IMG/VR virus record: IMGVR_UViG_3300047468_000050 | Coordinates: 1-22,140 of that record | Origin: a virus | DNA length: 22,140 bases | Strand: one strand, 5' to 3' | In this document: positions 17,049-20,867 of the stretch, piece by piece | Numbering within the stretch: position 1 is the stretch's first letter | Layout of the letters: the number at the start of each line of letters is the position of its first letter | Translations under genes and position numbers: made by a program | Notes under the pieces: generated by a model | What the model saw: the letters and a program-made list of their open reading frames with translations, nothing else | Told to the model about the DNA's origin: nothing | Databases searched by the model: none

Positions 17049-17290
17049 GGTCGGCTCACGGGGGCAGGGGTTGGGCGGGGCGGGGCGTTGGGCGGGGCGC
17101 TGGGCGCGTAGAAACAGCCGCACGGGTGGCAGACTGAGAGCGTGCCGAGCTCGTCGGCGCGCTGGACGTCGACGTAGAGGCAGCGGCGGCAGCGCGCGCA
17201 GACGCGGTCGAGGTCGGGGCAGCTGTGCGCGACGCGCATGGCGACGCGCTGCCCGCTGCGCAGGAGGCAACGCGGGCACACGCGGCTCAC
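17045..17290 (-). CDS. Small Cys-rich zinc-binding protein
   Basis: The product is 81 residues from a GTG at 17290 that overlaps the helicase-loader stop as GTGA; the gene ends with an ATGA overlap into the RuvC-like gene, so all three are probably co-translated. Nine Cys occur, as CPRC (5-8), C24, CARCRRC (31-37), and CHPCGC (54-59), enough for two zinc sites. The middle (LDRVCARCRRCLYVDVQ) looks like a rubredoxin-type or treble-clef knuckle. The last 20 residues are Pro/Ala-rich. No family name can be given. Co-translation suggests a part in replication or recombination. Confidence 0.65.
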   Translation of the reverse strand: MSRVCPRCLLRSGQRVAMRVAHSCPDLDRVCARCRRCLYVDVQRADELGTLSVCHPCGCFYAPSAPPNAPPRPTPAPVSRP

Positions 17291-18003
17291 GGCTTGTCTC
17301 GCAAGTTGGGGCCCGCGACAGTGCGCTGCAGCGCGAGCTCGTCGAGCAGCGAGCCGAGCGCGCCGTGCGCGTAGGTGGTCTTGAGCTGCCCTTGCGAGAC
17401 GTAGCTCGTGACGAGCGTGTCGCGCGACGCGCGCGCCTCGAGCAGCTCGCGCAGCGCGAGCGACACTTGCGCATGGTGGCGGGTTTCCTCGCCGCCGAGC
17501 CCGTCGACGATGAGCAGCGGCGCCTGCGCGAGACGTTGCCAGCGTGCGCCCTCGTCGCCGTATAGCGTGCCGTGCGCCTGCAGGAGCGCGCGCGGGGTCG
17601 CCCATAGACTCGCGGGGTGCTCGAGCGCGAGCGCGGCGCCTGCAACGGTCTTGCCCGAGCCGACGCTCGCGCACAGCACGAGCACGCGGCGCCGCTCGGG
17701 GTCGCGGTACCACTCGCGCACGGCATCGAGCGGCAAGCTGCGCGGCAGCTGCTCGGCAGCGAGCAGCTCGAGCACACGAGGCGTGAGCCCGACGCCGAGC
17801 TGCTCGAGCTGCCGGCGGCGAGCGAGCTTGCGGTCGCGAGCTCGGGCGACGGGGTCGGGGGGCGGCCCGGGTGGGCTCGGCGGTCGCTGCCCGCCGCTGG
17901 CGACCACGCGGGCGCACTGCTCGATGGCCTCACGCAGCCGCTGCTTGGCGGTCGGCATGAGCGATGCGACAGAGGCCGGCGGGGCGTCGCGGCGCGAGGT
18001 CAT
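17287..18003 (-). CDS. DnaC/IstB-like helicase loader ATPase
   Basis: The product is 238 residues. After a Pro-rich, basic first 70 residues, an AAA+ ATPase domain follows: Walker A ASVGSGKT (112-119), Walker B LLIVDGLGGEE (163-173, Asp167), and a sensor strand TLVTSYVS (196-203). The pattern and length match DnaC-type proteins that load the replicative helicase at an origin. The start ATG overlaps the initiator stop codon (ATGA), which mirrors the lambda O-P arrangement. No replicative helicase gene is in the window, so the host helicase is probably recruited. An IstB-type transposition helper is the main alternative, but no transposase is nearby. Confidence 0.85.
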   Translation of the reverse strand: MTSRRDAPPASVASLMPTAKQRLREAIEQCARVVASGGQRPPSPPGPPPDPVARARDRKLARRRQLEQLGVGLTPRVLELLAAEQLPRSLPLDAVREWYRDPERRRVLVLCASVGSGKTVAGAALALEHPASLWATPRALLQAHGTLYGDEGARWQRLAQAPLLIVDGLGGEETRHHAQVSLALRELLEARASRDTLVTSYVSQGQLKTTYAHGALGSLLDELALQRTVAGPNLRDKP

Positions 18004-18983
18004 AACACGGCCTCTGCCGCGAGCTCGGCGGCGGTAGCGGGTCGCAGCGGCGCGGGGCGGCCGGGCTGCTCGAGCGGCTTAGCTCGCCCGCTGGGCGGCT
18101 CGCCCGCGAGATAGTCGGGCCAATACCGCAGCACGTGCCCGGCGGTGTAGTAGCGCGACGCCTGCACGTCGGGGCGAGCGCGCACGAGCCGCGTGATGGT
18201 GGCTGCGACGCGGGCGAGGTCGCGCGGCGGTTTGCGCCCGAGCTCGGCATAGGCGTTGCGCTCGTGGTGCGTGCTCGGGTAGGGCGCGGGGCGCGTAAAG
18301 AGGGTCTGACAAAGCAGGTCGAGCCACGTACGCCCGCGGTCAATGTCGACGTCGTGCGCCGCTGCAGCGGTGGGCAGCGGCGCGACGCGGGCGTGACTGT
18401 GCGCGTGACCGGGGGCGTGACTGACCGCGTGACTGTCACTGTGACTTAGCGTGTGACTGTCACGCTGTGACGGGGTCTCGTTTGCTTGATTCTGCTCGAC
18501 GTGGTCTAGCGCCGAGCTGGGGCGATCGCGGGCTGCGTCTGTGCGAGCGTCTCGCGCTCGAGCTCGGGCACGTGAGCGGCGCTTGCGGGCGGCTGCGGGC
18601 GTCTCCTGCGTGCGCCAATAGCCGAGCAGAGCTACGCCGCCGCCCGGCAGCGGGGCGATCTCGCCGATGGCCTGCAGGCGCTCGAGCCCGCGTTTGGTCT
18701 GACGCGTGGTGAGCCCGGCTGCTGCTGCAATCTGACGGACGCTGAGCGGTGCGCCGTTGCACCACGCAATGGGCACGGGCTCGTGCTGCTCGTTGGGCGT
18801 GACAGTCACGCAAGCGTCGCGCGTGACTGTCACGGTTGCAGTGCGCGCGACGCTCGCAGCGCGCATGCGCTGGGCGTGCAGGCGGGCGAGGTGTAAGAGC
18901 GCGGTTAGGAGCGCTCGCCCGAGTCCGTCGAGCGGCGAGTCGGGCCCGTAGTACGTGTCGTGTACCTTGACGTAGTCGTGCAT
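18000..18983 (-). CDS. Replication initiator (lambda O-like), containing the origin repeats
   Basis: The product is 327 residues from ATG 18983 (MHDYVKVHDTYYGPDSPLDG), preferred to a longer frame that would overlap the Cro-like gene. A winged helix-turn-helix lies at 80-121 (LSVRQIAAAAGLTTRQTKRG, then LERLQAIGEI), the usual DNA-binding unit of phage replisome organisers. A basic linker (130-152) leads to residues 173-198, a tetrapeptide-periodic Ser-His region (DSHT-LSHS-DSHA-VSHA-PGHA-HSHA) that is the translation of the 12-bp iterons. The C-terminal domain (215-293; WLDLLCQTLF ... YYTAGHVLRYWPDYLAG) would recruit the loader. The gene is followed at once by the DnaC-like gene. Identification rests on wHTH, iterons and neighbour; sequence family cannot be named. 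Confidence 0.75.
   Translation of the reverse strand: MHDYVKVHDTYYGPDSPLDGLGRALLTALLHLARLHAQRMRAASVARTATVTVTRDACVTVTPNEQHEPVPIAWCNGAPLSVRQIAAAAGLTTRQTKRGLERLQAIGEIAPLPGGGVALLGYWRTQETPAAARKRRSRARARARDARTDAARDRPSSALDHVEQNQANETPSQRDSHTLSHSDSHAVSHAPGHAHSHARVAPLPTAAAAHDVDIDRGRTWLDLLCQTLFTRPAPYPSTHHERNAYAELGRKPPRDLARVAATITRLVRARPDVQASRYYTAGHVLRYWPDYLAGEPPSGRAKPLEQPGRPAPLRPATAAELAAEAVL
18391..18474. repeat. 12-bp iteron array, candidate replication origin
   Basis: GTGAC occurs at 18393, 18405, 18417, 18429, 18441 and 18453, six copies exactly 12 bp apart, with a seventh at 18467. A typical unit is GCGTGACTGTCA. Copies at 18429 and 18453 extend to the palindrome GTGACTGTCAC. A less GC-rich stretch (about 18478-18497) lies directly beside the array. 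Iterons inside the initiator gene next to an AT-richer tract are the classic layout of lambdoid origins, so this is the likely ori. Confidence 0.75.
18797..18834. repeat. Two further initiator-type palindromes 24 bp apart
   Basis: GCGTGACAGTCACGC (18797-18811, 7-bp arms) and CGTGACTGTCACG (18822-18834, 6-bp arms) share the iteron core. Their GTGAC starts (18799 and 18823) are 24 bp apart, twice the iteron period. They lie about 330 bp from the main array, near the 5' end of the initiator gene, and could serve as extra initiator sites or autoregulatory operators. Confidence 0.65.
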
Positions 18984-19059: not shown

Positions 19060-19299
19060 TTAGGTGGCAGCGAGCAGCTCGCGCTCGCGCTCGCGGCGGC
19101 GGCGCTTGCACACGCGATAGATCGCATCGACGGACACTGCGTGTTCCGTGGCCTCTGCGATGCTGCGCGCCGTCGAGCGGTGCGGGTAGCTCGAGCCCGC
19201 TGCGATGCGTCGCAGGGTCGAGCACGCGATGCCGGTGTGGCCATGCAGTCGCGAGATGCTTCCCAGTCCGTTGGCGTCGAACCATTCGCGGAGCGTCAT
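19060..19299 (-). CDS. Small HTH regulator, Cro-like
   Basis: The product is 79 residues: MTLREWFDANGLGSISRLHG, then HTGIACSTLRRIAAGSSYPH and a second helix pair (RSTARSIAEATEHAVSVDAIYR). The order L-x-x-HTGI..STLRRIAAG..YP is that of Xre/Cro-type helix-turn-helix domains. The C-terminus is very basic (CKRRRRERERE). It diverges from the larger XRE-type gene across a 269-bp spacer and is the first gene of the leftward transcription unit, so it probably acts as the Cro-like switch protein. The start ATG at 19299 has only a weak GGCGGT upstream. A gap of 76 bp follows before the initiator. Confidence 0.75.
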   Translation of the reverse strand: MTLREWFDANGLGSISRLHGHTGIACSTLRRIAAGSSYPHRSTARSIAEATEHAVSVDAIYRVCKRRRRERERELLAAT

Positions 19300-19568
19300 A
19301 GACCGCCGAGCCTACGGGCTCGCCGAGCAAACGCACAAGCTTCTATCCACACCTAACAGTTAGATATACAGCGAGCGCACGCTCGAGCGTCCGCTGCGCA
19401 CATGTAGGCGCCGCCATGGGTGGCGGCGTGACTAGTCGTTTTTGACGTGCTGTAGCCTGCGCTGGCTAGCCTTAGAGCGTTTAGTCGGGCATAACCTGTT
19501 GACCTACGACGCGCGGGCGGTCTATCCGCTCGAGCAGATGCTGCAACGCTCGTGCAAGGGGCTCGCTC
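19300..19568. promoter_or_regulatory. Divergent control region between the two HTH regulators
   Basis: No gene is seen in this 269-bp spacer. It contains several perfect palindromes: CTAACAGTTAG (19353-19363), ACGCTCGAGCGT (19379-19390), GACTAGTC (19430-19437) and GGCTAGCC (19464-19471), plus a strong hairpin. AACCTGTT at 19493 loosely resembles the first palindrome. TTGACG at 19442 and TTGACC at 19499 are possible rightward -35 boxes, but their -10 partners are poor. AAGGGG at 19556-19561 is the ribosome site of the rightward gene. The layout fits the operator region of a genetic switch. Confidence 0.6.
19409..19428. other. Strong hairpin in the switch region
   Basis: CGCCGCCA-TGGG-TGGCGGCG makes a perfect 8-bp stem with a 4-nt loop. 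The palindrome GACTAGTC and a run of five T (19439-19443) follow on the plus strand. The T-run is 10 nt past the stem, too far for a standard intrinsic terminator, so an operator or an attenuating structure are both possible. Confidence 0.4.
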
Positions 19569-20867
19569 ATGGCGCTACGGCTTAGAATCTCAGACCTCGA
19601 AGCACCTACACCCGACGACCCGATGGGCGAGCCGACGCTGCAGCGCCGCATATGGGCGGCGTACATGAGCCGGGGGTTTAGTCGGCACAAGTTTGCGCGC
19701 TCGTTGGGCGTCCACGGCTCGACGGTGGTGACGTGGTGCACGGGTGAGCGTGATCCCGACTTGCGGCAGCTGATCGCGGTCGCGCTGCTGCTTGACTATC
19801 CGCTCGAGCAGATTGTCTTCGGGCGCCCGGGTCAGGCGGGCGCGCGGGCGGTGGTCGAGGGGCGAGTGCCGCCGAGCGACGAGACGCTGCGCGCTGTGGT
19901 GCGCTCGTTTGTGGTGCTGATCGGCAGCTCGACGGTCTATGGCTCGTCGATGGTGCCGCCGCGTCTCGCGCACATTGCCGCCGAGCGTTGGTCAGGCGGC
20001 GACGATGCCGACGCATCGACGGGGCTCGGCAAGATGCCGCTCGACGTGGCGATGGCCCACTCGTTGCTCGCGCTGCGGCGCGGGCCCGACCTCGACATTC
20101 CCAAACATGGGCCCGGCAGAGAGACGGCGCAGCGGGCGCTGCGTGGCTGGGCGAATGCGGCGGCGCATGGCCACTTGCGCGAGGCGCTCGAGCGCGGTGT
20201 GCGTGACGATGCGGCGCTCGCGCTGCGCGTCGGGCAGCGACTTATCGAGCTCGCGACAGACGACGACGCGGATGCATGGGCAGCGTGCGTGCGCGAGGTG
20301 GTCGACGAGCTCACGGGTGCCGCCGAGCGGCGCCGGGTGTTTGCGGCGATGGATGCAGCCGAGGCGCTCGCAGGCGAGACGGGCGCAGCGACAGCCGACG
20401 AGGCCGACGACGGCGACGAGGCCGACGACGAGCGCGAGGCCGACGAGCTCGAGCACGACGCGCAGCAGCTCGTGCGGTGGCGCCCCTCGCCGGTGGCGTC
20501 ACAGCGCCGGCCTGCAACGCCTGCAACGCCTGCAACGCCCGAGCCGGCAGCGCCCGAGCCGGCGGCGGCGGCGTCGCAGCGGCGGCCTGCAGCGCCCCCA
20601 ACGCCTGCGGCGCCCGATCCGGCAGCGCCGGACAGCTCGCAGCCCGGCGGGCTCGGGCGGGCGCGAGAGGCCTACAACCGCATGATGGATGCGAGCCGCG
20701 CCGGGGGCGGGCGGTCGCTGTCCGACGCTGAGATAGACGCGTTGATTGCGCGCGAGGTGTCGCAGGTGTCGCGGTGGCGAGCTGTGCCGAAGGCGCCCGC
20801 GGTGCCGCCGAGTGACAAGCCCGGGCCCACGCGGGGCAACACGCCGGGGTCTAGGACGCGGCGCTAG
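19569..20867 (+). CDS. XRE-type DNA-binding regulator, probable phage repressor
   Basis: The product is 432 residues. ATG at 19569 is supported by AAGGGG 7 nt upstream. A helix-turn-helix domain occupies about 24-84 (TLQRRIWAAYMSRGFSRHKF, then ARSLGVHGSTVVTWCTGERD, then LLDYPLEQIVFG). Residues 100-260 are helical with no recognised enzyme motif; a LexA/S24 peptidase Ser-Lys pair could not be found. Residues 270-300 are very acidic (DEADDGDEADDERE), 310-358 are Pro/Ala repeats, and 360-405 (GRAREAYNRMMDASRAGG, LSDAEIDALIAREVS) form a last short helical segment. It diverges from the Cro-like gene, so it is the likely repressor. It is twice the usual length, and how it would be inactivated is not evident. 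Confidence 0.7.
   Translation: MALRLRISDLEAPTPDDPMGEPTLQRRIWAAYMSRGFSRHKFARSLGVHGSTVVTWCTGERDPDLRQLIAVALLLDYPLEQIVFGRPGQAGARAVVEGRVPPSDETLRAVVRSFVVLIGSSTVYGSSMVPPRLAHIAAERWSGGDDADASTGLGKMPLDVAMAHSLLALRRGPDLDIPKHGPGRETAQRALRGWANAAAHGHLREALERGVRDDAALALRVGQRLIELATDDDADAWAACVREVVDELTGAAERRRVFAAMDAAEALAGETGAATADEADDGDEADDEREADELEHDAQQLVRWRPSPVASQRRPATPATPATPEPAAPEPAAAASQRRPAAPPTPAAPDPAAPDSSQPGGLGRAREAYNRMMDASRAGGGRSLSDAEIDALIAREVSQVSRWRAVPKAPAVPPSDKPGPTRGNTPGSRTRR
20496..20639 (+). repeat. Imperfect duplication in the regulator's Pro/Ala linker
   Basis: Residues 310-334 and 335-357 both begin ASQRRPA and continue as Pro/Ala/Thr followed by (E/D)PAAP(E/D). Within the first half the 9-bp unit CTGCAACGC occurs three times in a row (20512-20538), giving PAT-PAT-PAT. 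The linker probably varies in length. Confidence 0.75.

Follow-up and report, generated by a model that had tools for sequence, protein, structure and literature searches.

What purpose is served by a run of evenly spaced copies of GTGAC inside the coding sequence of a predicted phage initiator? The window analysed here, 22,140 nucleotides long (IMG/VR record IMGVR_UViG_3300047468_000050), had been described in a first-pass annotation, made from the sequence alone, as containing an iteron origin with the layout found in phage lambda. We put a probability of roughly 0.8 on the reading that these repeats, and a second cluster in the same gene, are iterons bound by the initiator, and that together with an adjoining tract of weak duplex they form the replication origin of the phage, on the lambda O-ori-P plan; we infer the binding, the opening and the origin activity. 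The features concerned are:

17287..18003, minus strand: putative DnaC-like AAA+ helicase loader; its start overlaps the initiator stop (PHROG 3277, E = 1.6e-4; PHROG 50, E = 0.005)
18000..18983, minus strand: predicted initiator gene, 327 amino acids, with a winged helix-turn-helix (wHTH), a basic tail, a linker with the array and a helical C-terminal region
18393..18463, unstranded: putative iteron array of six GTGAC half-sites spaced 12 bp apart; at two of these the palindrome GTGACNGTCAC is complete
18429..18439, unstranded: palindrome GTGACTGTCAC, read on the minus strand as SDSH
18453..18463, unstranded: palindrome GTGACTGTCAC, 24 bp from the one at 18429; kept in 5 of 5 aligned sequences
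18467..18471, plus strand: offset seventh GTGAC, absent from the aligned relatives
18475..18494, unstranded: low-stability tract adjoining the array, candidate unwinding element; coding strand CAGAATCAAGCAAACGAGAC
18799..18809, unstranded: second-cluster palindrome GTGACAGTCAC, coding for VTVT, in an insertion within the wHTH domain
18823..18833, unstranded: second-cluster palindrome GTGACTGTCAC, 24 bp from the one at 18799
19060..19299, minus strand: small HTH regulator, upstream of the initiator and in the same direction (PHROG 3557, E = 1.3e-4)
19569..20867, plus strand: divergent CI-like repressor (HTH_3 above cut-off)

The plus strand carries GTGAC at 18393, 18405, 18417, 18429, 18441 and 18453, with every step exactly 12 bp, and the strict period claimed in the first-pass annotation lies beyond what Markov or shuffled sequences produce. 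When all pentamers were screened for strictly periodic runs at periods of 8-30 bp, this chain was the longest in the window, and the longest in each of 20 shuffles of the sequence comprised three to four copies. In 1000 first-order Markov sequences of the length and composition of the window, the longest 12-bp GTGAC chain was two; their densest 120 bp held at most six copies of GTSAC (observed, nine), and they contained no more than two perfect palindromes (observed, four). The complete repeat unit is the 11-bp palindrome GTGACNGTCAC, the remaining array copies being half-sites. Its four perfect copies in the 22-kb record all lie inside the initiator gene, with none elsewhere in the window.

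The first-pass annotation thus had the GTGAC core and the site of the array right; its bounds (18391-18474) were wider than the array proper (18393-18463), and it had missed both the full palindrome and the second cluster (18799-18833), which lies about 370 bp away, inside the coding region of the DNA-binding domain. It had also counted as an element the GTGAC at 18467, 14 bp past the 18453 copy; this was conserved in none of the four aligned relatives, so we set it aside as probably functionless.

The predicted initiator matched no Pfam, PHROG or NCBIfam model significantly, neither the lambda O families (Phage_rep_O and the O-like PHROGs) in those three collections nor, in Pfam, the Rep_3-type domain of iteron-plasmid initiators (Rep_3/RepA). 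Its residues 79-141, comprising the HTH and the basic tail (ARKRRSRARARAR), resemble the initiators of PHROGs 270/1032/391 in a weak profile match (hhalign probability 72.5, E = 3e-5). As no family model matched, it is identified as an initiator by profile similarity, by its context and by the layout. The wHTH appears to be interrupted by an insertion after its first helix and before the HTH, and the array falls in a low-complexity linker after the basic tail. We prefer the start at MHDYV to the longer frame from 19244, because that start is kept in relatives and the upstream frames differ. An AF2 model of the protein was poor (pLDDT 44) and good for secondary structure only, but its elements follow one another as expected: a helix, a hairpin at the VTVT cluster, the HTH, a wing, a long basic helix, a disordered linker holding the array and a helical C-terminal part. 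It was dropped for fold searching and, since it was too poor, a Streptomyces-phage relative was modelled instead, and pLDDT there exceeds 90 across most of its wHTH. In that model too, a disordered linker holds the array; before it come a confident wHTH and helix, and after it a helical C-terminal domain. Its fold matches in a viral library included replisome organisers, DnaD and a RepA-like initiator; the only PDB matches were to general wHTH regulators, and no E value fell below 0.001.

The adjoining DnaC-like loader gene reported in the first-pass annotation was found at 17287-18003, and its product weakly matches a clear phage DnaC-like loader (E = 0.002). Neither initiator nor loader had a match in a collection of 50,697 phage records. 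The less GC-rich tract reported beside the repeats was likewise present (GC 0.61-0.64 by the array, 0.67-0.82 nearby). The sequence at 18475-18494 is largely conserved in relatives, and the best 50-mer near the array falls within the least stable 1.6% in the window, and within 1.8% and 4.4% in two relatives. This tract is modest, several sites in the window being weaker, and is not AT-rich in absolute terms. GC skew, monotonic in the window and in two relatives of 48-51 kb with no turn at the array, is uninformative as evidence for an origin.

Might the sites instead be operators, through which the initiator or a phage repressor silences the replication genes, with the origin elsewhere? The palindromic 11-bp sites resemble dimer operators, the CI-like repressor and the small HTH regulator are encoded next door, and in iteron plasmids Rep dimers bind inverted iteron copies for self-control. 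However, the divergent promoter region (19300-19568) is devoid of GTGACNGTCAC, the two clusters are 150-590 bp into the coding sequence, and a six-copy direct array with a 12-bp step would be unusual as an operator; elsewhere, moreover, the array travels with initiator genes and their helicase or loader neighbours. We consider operators of this kind unlikely.

The array is also a repeat in the protein, where the 4-residue Ser-His period noted in the first-pass annotation is present (DSHTLSHSDSHAVSHAPGHAHSH). A Ser-His-rich repeat, whether metal-binding or flexible, might therefore be what is kept, with the DNA repeat as its by-product. The peptide repeat is real, and synonymous codon shuffles within the gene retained about half of the GTSAC copies (mean 6.7, observed 13), although the observed counts were reached in only 1-2 of 20,000 shuffles. 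When the gene was resampled 20,000 times with the phage's own codon usage, however, the means fell to 4.4 GTSAC copies, 0.41 palindromes and a chain of 0.97 (observed 13, 4 and 6), and not one resample reached any of the observed counts; the codon usage of the phage does not explain the repeats. The Ser codon AGT is rare (8 of 245 Ser codons across nine other phage genes) yet occurs at every Ser of the array, and the Gly codon GGT (12 of 260 elsewhere in the phage) is used at the array Gly. These rare codons appear just at the repeat, in keeping with the claim of the first-pass annotation that the coding sequence had bent to fit it. The palindrome encodes VTVT in the second cluster and SDSH in the array, an exchange of Ser and Gly within the array leaves GTCAC intact, and across the window, its distant homologue L070 and other families the word is translated as VTVT, SH, GH, RD or GD. 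It is very improbable that the repeat exists for the sake of the protein.

Loss or poor conservation of the repeats in close relatives had been named beforehand as an observation that would refute the origin proposal, and the proposal withstood this check. Five relatives, at 81-98% protein identity, retain the array with five to seven copies in strict 12-bp register; its length differs among them by whole 12-bp units only, and GTCAC is constant in every repeat present while the spacers vary. The second palindrome pair is kept by the four relatives that cover that region, and in four sequences it varies at the centre base alone.

The distant homologue L070 (IMG/VR 3300046747_000237; 26% identity to the window initiator, E = 8e-7) has four GTGAC copies at 12-bp steps in an insertion within its wHTH region, and a second group of four, also at 12-bp steps, directly after its basic tail. 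The peptides encoded by its clusters are KRHCDASGDACGDMDGDG and KRHSDGHGDASRDGSGDD, as against VTVTRDACVTVT and DSHTLSHSDSH in the window. The positions of both clusters in L070, and their word and step, correspond to those of the window although the encoded amino acids differ, so it would be the DNA that selection keeps; no other single observation speaks as strongly for the sites acting as DNA. Judged by eye only, its downstream frame starts like a DnaB helicase. Searches for more distant relatives of the two initiators gave nothing new.

How widely is the word used? A pair of the palindromes at 24 bp was found in 51 IMG/VR stretches, whereas a control palindrome of matched composition gave one. 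According to tblastn, 43 of these stretches fall at genes of initiator type, belonging to the window family or others: 32 in one Streptomyces-phage-like family, four in the window family and the rest single or double cases. The 51 matches are not independent, because those 32 represent one family. Two more (L030 and L060) follow a replicative helicase gene, and six do not belong. Genes beside the arrays encode DnaC-like loaders (L013, L033, L047) or DnaB-like helicases (L042, L050), and this shared layout, with the predicted architecture, bears out the lambda-like plan of the first-pass annotation. Arrays of GTGAC/GTCAC just past the basic tail of the DNA-binding domain occur in at least six PHROG groups of phage initiators, and an isolated Streptomyces phage, TurkishDelight, has one in gene 71. 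Initiators of PHROGs 2447/3926, 2514/186 and 9327/3992 and of PF09681 likewise have GTSAC arrays in the linker position. Across the other initiator genes the reading frame of the word is not constant, several being used, and the excess of GTSAC over synonymous shuffles was strong in most of them, weak for L013, L050, L075, L146 and L402, and nil for L037. One PF09681 (Phage_rep_org_N) initiator has an HNH endonuclease domain inserted ahead of its GTGAC array (L031:4051-5208).

When 68 prophage genes of initiator families were chosen regardless of the word, three had at least five GTSAC per 150 bp, as did 1 of 131 flanks. The word is therefore no general rule, and most phage initiators use something else. 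Within this sample, clusters of GTGCA (L406, L414, L416, L432, L436) and of ACCCC (L406, L408, L412, L444), absent or rare in the flanks, are candidate iterons of other specificity.

A plain 12-bp GTCAC array was also tried as a database signature and rejected: the reversed control, CACTG, was as frequent among the matches listed, and plain arrays are not diagnostic, most matches being tandem coding repeats whose spacers are identical. Among cellular genomes, the pair of palindromes occurs mostly in intergenic hairpins or VTVT-rich repeat proteins, not in initiators, the dispersed hairpins belonging to Chloroflexi, Omnitrophota and Acidobacteria. Many such hairpins, with two GTGACNGTCAC copies 24 bp apart (for example, GGTGACAGTCACTTTCGCGAAGCGAGTGACTGTCACC), were seen in Chloroflexi and Omnitrophota MAGs (L296, L333, L369, L293, L331 and others). 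On one phage contig, six GTGACTGTCAC-type boxes lie around gene boundaries with no recognised initiator gene there (L027:3548-4137); these may be operators.

Because of the 3 in 68, the undiagnostic plain arrays and the cellular hairpins, we hold the claim to "a recurrent word" and not a universal one. We suggest, tentatively and at slightly less than even odds, that GTGAC/GTCAC is a recurrent origin word, used by several dissimilar wHTH initiator families in different host groups and placed in the linker just after the DNA-binding domain. The shared word could reflect either a single ancient DNA specificity that has been conserved or convergence on several occasions.

That the sites are instead the centromere (parS) of a phage partition system we regard as highly doubtful: relatives encode ParA and arrayed repeats are typical of centromeres, but several other phage families have GTGAC arrays at their initiator genes, and the par locus of the 48-kb relative has its own flanking palindrome, GTCACGACGTCGTGAC, with parA about 13 kb from the array. 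That locus (L420:2861-4263) encodes ParA and a 168-residue partner. Full copies of the flanking 16-bp palindrome are at 2885 and 4248, and half copies at 2861, 4219 and 5681; it also contains GTCAC and GTGAC, in the order opposite to that of the iterons, and is likely a centromere or operator. The two termini of the 47,908-base relative (L420:1-127 and the end of L422) are direct repeats of 127 bp, and for that reason this relative is probably complete. A search for a tyrosine or serine integrase found none. Given ParA in the relatives and no integrase found, the proposed origin probably also maintains a plasmid prophage, and the window phage probably persists in that form by means of it.

Origins placed within initiator genes are already known. 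In lambda and the Stx phages, iterons lie in the middle of the initiator gene O, beside weaker duplex and followed by the loader gene, and in Stx phages extra iterons add amino acids to O (PMC7466680). The window shares with them repeats inside the initiator gene and a loader gene next, the low-stability tract being a candidate counterpart of the weaker duplex, and its putative iterons, like the iterons of lambda (CCCTC...GAGGG), are inverted repeats (GTGAC...GTCAC). It differs in having an 11-bp palindrome or 5-bp half-site at 12 bp, where the lambda iterons are about 18-19 bp; two clusters, flanking the stretch that encodes the HTH, where lambda has one; an AAA+ DnaC-like loader in place of P; and an initiator with no detectable sequence match to the O families.

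A second comparison is with the actinobacterial initiators of PHROGs 270/1032/391, such as gene 71 of TurkishDelight, which have a wHTH with a KRRSR-type basic tail and a GTGAC/GTCAC array with GTGACNGTCAC palindromes, mostly 24 bp apart, followed by a loader or helicase gene. They differ in having a single cluster, read mostly as VT, with spacings that mix 18, 22 and 24 bp, and only the weak profile match ties them to the window protein. Some members of the Phage_rep_org_N (PF09681), DnaD-like (PHROG 186/2514) and primosomal (PHROG 9327/3992) families resemble the window in their linker GTSAC arrays (L031, L119, L157, L096); their N-terminal domains differ, and most unselected members lack an array. 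The extrachromosomal RepA/parABS mycobacteriophages are temperate, with a par system in place of an integrase, and the authors of that study suspect an origin at or within repA, as in lambda, although they found no repeats (PMC7157519). These phages share with the window a par system (ParA in the relatives of the window phage) and a phage initiator with a suspected internal origin, and differ in that the window has arrays. We found no paper on GTGACNGTCAC in a phage context in the open-access literature, older subscription work on Gram-positive phage origins lying outside that scope. Three things depart from the known plan: the iteron, in which a 5-bp word repeated every 12 bp is combined with an 11-bp palindrome; the second cluster in the coding region of the DNA-binding domain; and one word recurring in several initiator families.

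In the origin that we propose, the wHTH domain of the initiator would read GTGAC. Copies of the protein would align along the 12-bp array, at about 1.14 helical turns per site, and would pair head-to-head on the palindromes. The assembled complex would then strain and open the adjoining low-stability tract. The C-terminal region of the initiator would hand over to the DnaC-like loader, product of the gene immediately downstream, and the loader would place the host DnaB helicase. The second cluster would probably cooperate with the array by looping or handcuffing, or act in self-regulation.

Origins have been mapped in few phages outside the lambda-like models, and here the sequence allows one to be predicted, down to the word, its spacing and the arrangement in two clusters. 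If the word is indeed recurrent, origins could be read directly from many phage genomes. Its recurrence across PHROG groups makes the choice of sites by phage initiators accessible to testing, and bears also on how a coding sequence may carry an origin while the protein changes around the repeats.
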